Below are positions 23,345-26,270 of a stretch of DNA of 64,000 nt, one piece after another. The stretch covers positions 124,001-188,000 of the forward strand of contig NZ_JABWRJ020000003.1 of assembly GCF_014268935.2 (NCBI RefSeq), in the 5' to 3' direction. Both the position numbers and the translations under genes were made by a program. Source of the DNA: Pseudomonas peradeniyensis. GTDB lineage: Bacteria > Pseudomonadota > Gammaproteobacteria > Pseudomonadales > Pseudomonadaceae. Each line of letters opens with the position of its first letter. The stretch's first letter is position 1. The notes beneath the pieces were generated by a model. That model was not told the origin of the DNA. It did no database searches and saw nothing but the letters and a program-made list of their open reading frames with translations.

Positions 23345-23455
23345 CCGCTGGCGAGGGCTTTGCCCTCGTTTCGCGGCACAAGGCCGCTCCTACAAGCAAT
23401 CGCGATCCCCTGTAGGAGCGGCCTTGTGCCGCGAAAGGGCCGCAAAGCGGCCCCA
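23345..23455. repeat. REP pair (BIME), GCGGCCTTGTGCCGC type
   Basis: Two inverted arms with TTTCGCGGCACAAGGCCGCTCCTACA and its complement are flanked by the stems GAGGGCTTTGCCCTC and GGGCCGCAAAGCGGCCC, directly after tsaC. Confidence 0.9.
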
Positions 23456-23579
23456 GAATTCCCGCCGATTTTTCTGATTTGCACCCAGATGGCTGCCCAT
23501 TCTGAATTCAGAGAAATATCCTACGCAGTCTGTCGACTGCCATTACCTTCTCAGTGGGAACGCTTGCCTCTAGGCTCCA

Positions 23580-23760
23580 AACCGTCGCCGAATAACTTGG
23601 CGATCGGGTGTGGTAGCCCGGGTATTCGATTCCCCATGTCAGTCCATGGCGGCTGTGCGTGGGAGGCTTTCGAGCCTGCCTGGTTTGGGAATCGCCCGGG
23701 TCTACCACCTCGCGTACAGTCGCCACCCAATTCGCGTGGTAGCGGGGCCGGTGGTTTTTT
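23580..23760 (+). ncRNA. Candidate structured leader or small RNA upstream of the DUF3077-like gene
   Basis: Several nested inverted repeats occur in about 180 bases: TCGCC...GGCGA (23585-23603); a long stem of GTGGTAG, CCCGGG and CGATTCCC (23610-23634) with GGGAATCG, CCCGGG and CTACCAC (23687-23708); and inside it the perfect UUCG tetraloop hairpin AGGCT-TTCG-AGCCT (23664-23677). CTACCAC can instead pair with a second GTGGTAG copy (23736-23742), extended by CGCG/CGCG. GCCACC (23722-23727) can pair with GGTGGT (23750-23755), followed by T6, a terminator-like end just before the ribosome binding site. It could be a cis-regulator or a free small RNA. Confidence 0.5.
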
Positions 23761-23775
23761 AAGGAGCGAATTCCC

Positions 23776-24087
23776 ATGACTAGAAAGCTTGTTCCCGATC
23801 CACCACTCCCAAATACCACAACCCACCCCTTTGGCCGCTGCGATGCCGGCCACCCACCGCTCTTCACCGTAAATCCCAACATCGAAGCCCACGACGCCCT
23901 GGTACACGTCGCGCTCTACCTGCGCTGCGCCTACGACACTGGCATCAAGGCCCTCGATCACCTGCGCGACGAGGGGCGTGGCATGTATTGGTCGAGCCTG
24001 CATTCGCTGGAAATGGCGGAGGGGTTGGTAGAGGCGATGCTCGATGGCATCGAGTCGGCGCCTGTAGCCCAAGGCGCTGCTGACTAG
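23776..24087 (+). CDS. Small DUF3077-like protein, function unknown
   Basis: A 103-residue soluble protein with a proline-rich N-terminus, then LFTVNPNIEAHDALVHVALYL and a helical end with SLEMAEGLVEAM. The pattern resembles the DUF3077 family of short Pseudomonas proteins; this is a judgement by eye. AAGGAG lies 9 bases before the ATG. It is alone between two REP pairs and behind the inverted-repeat leader, so its expression is probably controlled through that leader. No function can be proposed. Confidence 0.7.
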   Translation: MTRKLVPDPPLPNTTTHPFGRCDAGHPPLFTVNPNIEAHDALVHVALYLRCAYDTGIKALDHLRDEGRGMYWSSLHSLEMAEGLVEAMLDGIESAPVAQGAAD

Positions 24088-24144
24088 TTGGCGCTATCGC
24101 GGGCAATGTTTTGAATTTGCGTTCGACTTGGGCTCGCTGGGGCC

Positions 24145-26270
<2,126 letters not shown>

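Follow-up and report, generated by a model that had tools for sequence, protein, structure and literature searches.

A leader RNA upstream of a gene of unknown function belongs to a known Rfam class, the C4 antisense RNAs (RF01695). It lies in the window, by which we mean the whole 64-kb stretch of DNA analyzed here. The match scores 66.7 bits against a gathering threshold of 45 and covers model positions 1 to 87 of 87, and RF01695 is the only Rfam family that reaches its gathering threshold in the window. C4 RNAs are processed, trans-acting repressing RNAs of about 77 to 90 nt. The original prediction of a regulatory RNA before this gene was thus borne out. It had also proposed a new RNA class, which the Rfam match contradicts, and a riboswitch, to which nothing points; the sites are accounted for by RF01695 together with RF03163 (c4-a1b1). 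We consider it probable, at roughly 85%, that the locus is a domesticated chromosomal C4/CI immunity cassette, in which processed C4 would silence its own gene and the upstream a1b1 copy would compete for it. The features of the locus are as follows.

23548 to 23576, + strand: promoter-like pair TTCTCA ... CTAGGCT, 5' of the a1b1 hairpin, putative, from conservation
23570 to 23624, + strand: c4-a1b1 element (upstream hairpin plus a1 target), RF03163 at 34.8 bits, sub-threshold
23610 to 23616, + strand: a1 target GTGGTAG, fully complementary to a', as in 33 of 34 homologues
23627 to 23634, + strand: b1 target CGATTCCC, 8-base complement of b'
23642 to 23730, + strand: C4 antisense RNA, RF01695, full length, fold z −3.5
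23687 to 23694, + strand: b' antisense loop GGGAATCG, complement of b1 and b2
23702 to 23708, + strand: a' antisense segment CTACCAC, complement of a1 and a2
23736 to 23742, + strand: a2 target GTGGTAG, fully complementary to a', as in 32 of 34 homologues
23750 to 23754, + strand: c2, here the degenerate GGTGG, complementary to the 3' outer strand of C4
23755 to 23760, + strand: T6 run after c2, not conserved (five or more T's in 2 of the 34 homologues)
23761 to 23766, + strand: Shine-Dalgarno AAGGAG, read from the sequence
23770 to 23776, + strand: b2 target ATTCCCA, whose last base is the A of the start codon; complementary to the b' loop over 7 bases
23776 to 24087, + strand: 103-aa DUF3077/DUF6124-like gene (MTRKLVPDPP...), near-cutoff PF19619/PF11275 scores, dN/dS 0.14

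The CTACCAC segment and its two GTGGTAG partners were found exactly where they had been predicted, and GCCACC (23722 to 23727), GGTGG with T6 (23750 to 23760), and AAGGAG lie within a base or two of the expected places. We assigned the three 7-mers to a1, a', and a2 because the record of phage P1 has the same element order, annotating promoters, a1, b1, c4, a2, b2, icd, and ant in succession. At the locus itself, a' is complementary at 7 of 7 bases on both sides, and b' at 8 bases upstream and 7 downstream. The RF03163 match stays below its gathering threshold of 46.7 bits, yet has an E value of 2.6e-7 in a permissive search of 351 bases. The CTAGNCT-type box occurs in 57 of 119 loci (12 of 25 in the host genome of the window, hereafter the own genome; 29 of 34 homologues; 16 of 60 in a five-genome sample), and the two T's opening the first promoter hexamer are present in 98% and 96% of the 57 boxed loci; a sigma-70 scan found no promoter. 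REP-like inverted repeats (GTAGGAGCGGCCTTGTGCCGCGAAAGGG) were seen by eye on both sides of the cassette, at 23355 to 23450 and 24140 to 24245.

The predicted first state, in which GTGGTAG at 23610 pairs with CTACCAC at 23702, is indeed the minimum fold of the leader: over 23582 to 23790, a1/b1 pair with b'/a' at −91.2 kcal/mol (z −3.0, none of 200 shuffles as stable). The C4 part folded alone is likewise more stable than all of 200 shuffles (z −3.5). Among the 25 C4s of the own genome, 15 of the 22 stem pairs have changed on both sides, a count reached in 0 of 500 shuffles and falling to 1 to 8 pairs when the structure is slid, with the structure derived from the same 25-sequence alignment. 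A covariance model built from these 25 sequences finds P1 c4 at 45.8 bits.

By analogy with P1 and P4, a single transcript would run from just 5' of the a1b1 hairpin through C4 into the gene. The C4 segment would be processed out of it and fold with b' and a' exposed. On this same message, C4 would then bind a2 and b2, the sites near the ribosome-binding site and start codon, leaving the gene silent by default. The a1b1 copy would compete for a' and b' in cis, forming the long stem that disarms C4 and turns the gene on; alternatively, it may compete in trans as a decoy. As in the C4 class, a downstream target lies at the ribosome-binding site, namely b2 at 23770 to 23776. We count against the proposed silencing that b2 has only 7 bases here: it starts 3 bases past AAGGAG and reaches the A of ATG, leaving the Shine-Dalgarno itself uncovered.

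A rival explanation is a cis-only switch without any free antisense RNA. The leader would choose between two folds during transcription, the on fold pairing a1/b1 with b'/a' and the off fold pairing a'/a2 together with b'/b2. In its favor, the on stem is the minimum fold of the leader. Moreover, b1 and C4 nearly touch in this lineage, which mostly lacks the T-run found between the two in phage C4 loci (present in 2 of 25 own loci and 2 of 34 homologues). Such a switch would not obviously need the C4 scaffold, which is nevertheless kept and covaries, and P1 c4 acts in trans, according to excerpts of PMC8546580. We regard the cis-only switch as possible but doubtful.

The original prediction also included a terminator made of GCCACC/GGTGG and T6, and a ligand riboswitch or attenuator ending in this terminator at 23755 to 23760 would be the corresponding explanation. 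We find it hardly credible: the letters exist at that place, but a terminator scan of 23400 to 23800 was negative, T5 or more 3' of C4 occurs in 2 of 34 homologues, and RF01695 and RF03163 explain the sites. Of the palindrome TCTGAATTCAGA predicted upstream, the sequence itself is present at 23501 to 23512, but it is perfect in just 2 of 34 homologues, and we rejected it as an operator. The proposed T6 terminator and the palindrome are both confined to the closest relatives.

We then considered how this locus is kept among homologues. A scan of named genomes gave 35 relatives of the gene, 33 filed under Pseudomonas, one under Pantoea, and a weak match in Xanthomonas; judging by genome names, we take the homologous loci to belong mostly to the P. 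putida group. The own-genome C4 model matches just 5' of the gene in 34 of the 35 loci, the exception being Xanthomonas, and in 30 of 35 the cassette occupies the same position, flanked by tsaC on the upstream side and/or qor on the downstream side (gene names read by eye). The predicted mutually exclusive pairings are real, and they held up in the proposed comparison of homologous leaders: exact a1/a'/a2 complementarity is maintained in 31 of 34 loci through three alleles, TTACCAC, CTACCAC, and TTTCCAC. The exceptions are L124 with a G-U pair at a1, L120 with a changed a2, and L102, in which a2 and the gene start are lost. In the L102 locus (one P. mosselii genome, 2934 to 3080), C4 runs straight into mid-gene, and a2, the ribosome site, and the start are absent. 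The b loop has 26 different sequences among 34 loci; in every one of these, the best complement found downstream scores between 6 and 12, although it lies off the expected place in a few (L094, L102, L109, and L110). In the 27 of 35 loci covered by the search pattern of the pairing test (the model, flank, and triplet counts use 34), the a sites hardly vary, so that self pairing only slightly exceeds non-self pairing, at 6.97 versus 6.76 and 6.94 versus 6.72 (1 of 5,000 permutations). In one homologous locus, L110 (2863 to 3866), the tsaC/qor site is occupied by a tandem pair of C4 cassettes.

Purifying selection acts on the gene, with a median pairwise dN/dS of 0.14 over 574 of 595 pairs, 21 pairs lying outside the limits and many dS values being near saturation; the protein alignment comprised 28 of 34 homologues (L107, L092, L098, L109, L116, and L118 were left out). 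This dN/dS value, the common site in 30 of 35 loci, and the compensated changes in a and b speak against a functionless phage remnant. The best-studied family members are phage encoded and a few copies look broken (the frame of L019, the lost start of L102), as one would expect of a remnant, which we nonetheless judge very unlikely.

The own genome carries 25 C4 RNAs that exceed the threshold. Each of the 25 has a different matched a'/b' pair, although in L017 and L026 the matches are of chance length. On average, a C4 core pairs more strongly with its own flanks than with the flanks of other C4s: the mean energy was −29.3 kcal/mol for self versus −21.7 kcal/mol for non-self downstream, and −37.7 versus −27.9 kcal/mol upstream, with 0 of 10,000 permutations as good in either case. 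The self partner is the best one in 10 of 25 downstream and 16 of 25 upstream, and since it often is not, cross-talk among some own-genome paralogues is predicted. The excess of self over non-self at the four site pairs was reached in 0 of 5,000 permutations each in the own-genome (25 loci), other-Pseudomonas (40 loci), and non-Pseudomonas (20 loci) sets, and in 0 to 11 of 5,000 inside each of five further genomes.

We investigated the distribution of C4 in the genus and the class, where copy numbers are lower bounds, since at most 27 and 11 candidates per genome, respectively, were scored under stricter filters. At least one C4 was found in 136 of 149 Pseudomonas genomes, the own genome included, and 36 of the 149 have at least 27 among the matches listed. 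Across the class, C4 was found in 28 of 370 genomes, again with the own genome included. DUF3077 was found in 1 of 276 genomes of the class, which is the own genome, and 16 of its 19 DUF3077 matches lie at most 600 nt downstream of a C4. For L128, one of the three DUF3077 matches outside these 16, the right strand gives a very weak C4-like signal (21 bits, E 0.0045). In the same search, true C4s score at least as well on their opposite strand, and the Rfam model does not see the L128 signal. L127, L129, and L130 are own-genome DUF3077/DUF6124 matches that have no C4 upstream; L130, a DUF6124 match, also holds a PrrF RNA. In L049, C4 precedes a BRO-N domain gene (PF02498, one sequence scanned) instead of DUF3077, and by eye the C4s of L043, L045, L048, L052, and L055 do so likewise; the product of such genes is perhaps an antirepressor. 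Our literature search, outside of which most subscription papers lay, returned no description of a chromosomal C4/DUF3077 family.

C4 loci mostly contain a third complement, c2, a stretch downstream of a2 that can pair with the C4 3' outer strand. It was scored as a gapless run with 1 per Watson-Crick pair and 0.3 per G-U pair, and 6 or more was counted. With this score, c2 was found in 16 of 20 non-Pseudomonas loci (0 of 20 in a control region; self preference matched in 0 of 5,000 permutations), 27 of 40 in Pseudomonas (control 1; 1 of 5,000), and 16 of 25 in the own genome (control 0; 18 of 5,000). The lineage of the window has it in 6 of 34 loci (control 2), where self pairing is not significant (283 of 5,000). 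Phage P4 is included among the C4 loci with c2: by eye it has nine bases, GCTATCGCC and GGCGATAGC, and P1 has five. Its position between a2 and b2 prevents c2 from pairing collinearly within the antisense duplex, and it could instead open the C4 stem in cis. It is the grain of truth behind the predicted GCCACC/GGTGG hairpin.

The locus resembles the immunity region immI (c4-icd-ant) of P1 in the order a1, b1, C4, a2, b2, small gene, and the same model recognizes C4 in both. According to excerpts of PMC8546580, the trans-acting c4 RNA represses Ant synthesis in P1. Unlike P1, the locus is chromosomal, at a stable site, and present in many copies per genome, and it controls, as we propose, DUF3077/DUF6124-like genes, not icd and ant. 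The CI system of P4, with its seqA, seqB, and seqC, also has targets on both sides of the RNA and acts by transcription termination on replication genes (PMC4825925, in the excerpts available), while here a single small gene follows C4. The P4 immunity region scores 74.9 bits for RF01695, 60.8 for isrK, and 44.1 for c4-a1b1, which lies upstream and falls just short of its gathering threshold of 46.7. IsrK of the Salmonella prophage Gifsy-1 lies upstream of a C4-like RNA with which it shares complementary sequences, and it has its own terminator and activates in trans, as far as excerpts of PMC4825925 go. The window reaches 16.2 bits for isrK (RF01394) against a gathering threshold of 50, and its sequence has no T-run between b1 and C4 that could serve as the isrK terminator. 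Elsewhere, C4 and isrK form one transcriptional unit in Burkholderia (PMC4603805, in excerpt), and C4 and c4-a1b1 are listed for Proteobacteria and phages in the part available of Weinberg 2010 (PMC2864571).

The upstream T-run, which marks a putative terminator, separates the phage C4 loci from ours. In the 60 nt preceding C4, a run of at least five T's was found in 61 of 95 viral loci (14 of 109 had been dropped, as the pattern found no 5' strand; the kept set includes at least one locus unlike C4, L291, and some contigs with host flanks), 19 of 20 non-Pseudomonas loci, and 28 of 40 top-scoring Pseudomonas loci. The corresponding counts were 16 of 60 in the five-genome sample, a fair sample comprising 60 of 82 C4s from 5 of 6 genomes (G057 left out), and 2 of 25 and 2 of 34 in the own genome and the homologues. 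Where the T-run is missing, a1b1 and C4 would invariably share a transcript, a situation that favors competition in cis, as folded. In the Pseudomonas phage phiAH14b (16.8 kb), which we judge to be P4-like from the integrase, AlpA, primase, and helicase in its record, C4 precedes small genes and a Toprim primase, suggesting that phage control was the older role.

The 103-aa protein scores just under the Pfam cutoffs, at 25.6 of 27 for PF19619 (DUF6124) and 19.3 of 21 for PF11275 (DUF3077), and we call the gene DUF-like because the C4 units of this genome contain paralogues that exceed the cutoffs. The protein had no match in NCBIfam or PADLOC and no sequence relative in the PDB better than an E value of 0.23, and its two-helix model (mean pLDDT 67) had no fold match at an E value of 0.001 or better. 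Kinship with the 95-aa epsilon protein of P4 was rejected (hhalign probability 0.1%). Using tblastn, we found no DUF3077 with the window protein in phages and plasmids, nor with one phage-like DUF3077 protein in phages. Two PHROG families match 3 of 9 proteins scanned, all three being DUF3077, and none of ten proteins scanned from two phage operons is DUF3077. Insertion restored a DUF3077 pseudogene in furfural-evolved P. putida (excerpts of PMC9630843), which gives a hint of function only.

Many of the genes behind C4 share a PDPP-type start, M-x(2-7)-P[DN]PP, found after 46 of 60 C4s in the five genomes and 21 of 25 in the own genome with a pattern of a start codon followed by x(2-7)-P[DN][PL][PLR], 15 to 75 nt from C4. 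It reads P[DN]PP in 66 of these 67 starts, and the codon for the first residue of the P[DN]PP motif varies (CCC 33, CCA 19, CCT 12, and CCG 3). Because the residues are near-invariant while the codons vary, the peptide rather than the RNA seems to be selected. The start might conceivably act as an EF-P-dependent pause. In the controls, the pattern occurred in 9 of 3,190 window stretches (both strands) and 0 of 20 non-Pseudomonas loci. It was present in 31 of 34 homologues and 32 of 95 viral loci. Of the 40 top-scoring Pseudomonas loci (L031 to L070), which are among the best C4s of the genus by score and biased to phage-like ones, 6 had it. The window unit consists of one gene, and other units of a PDPP gene followed by a DUF3077 gene. 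In L014 and L025 of the own genome, a PDPP leader peptide ends within the ATGA at which a separate gene begins, an arrangement that recalls the icd-ant order of P1. The PDPP start of L019 (C1, 796111 to 796202) is one base out of frame relative to its paralogues, possibly a pseudogene, as judged by eye.

Beyond the proposed control of single genes, the genus-wide array of C4 cassettes, each with its own a/b address, might be an RNA-coded sensor or immunity layer that keeps the PDPP proteins silent. If so, an invading phage or satellite that carries a matching C4 target or a1b1 decoy would be silenced by the resident C4, or would titrate it and release the protein. Three C4s, L026, L017, and L006, lie in tandem within 500 bases (contig C2, 606875 to 607360). 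L017 and L026 are upstream of L006 and have no target of their own, the gene after L006 has no PDPP start, and the best own-genome downstream partner of L026 is the neighboring L006. Under the immunity reading, the solo C4s L017 and L026 would be pure trans-immunity copies. Their a'/b' were compared with 90 distinct viral targets, a set that includes a contig with the same cassette (L255), and 45 of 60 and 23 of 60 shuffled loops, respectively, were as good. Only L010, of six C4s tried, beat all 60 shuffles. Because L017 and L026 showed no excess, we lowered our already small expectation and now hold an immunity layer to be unlikely.

The leader is therefore a known kind of RNA in an unusual use, a domesticated, multi-copy, and largely self-addressed antisense system in one genus. 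Its identity as C4 is firm, and silencing of the gene is predicted. A phage-immunity RNA appears to have been turned into a standing gene-control device, with dozens of copies per cell. The C4 loci provide naturally occurring antisense pairs that differ in their recognition sequences, and DUF3077 and DUF6124 gain a regulatory context and hence a testable handle.
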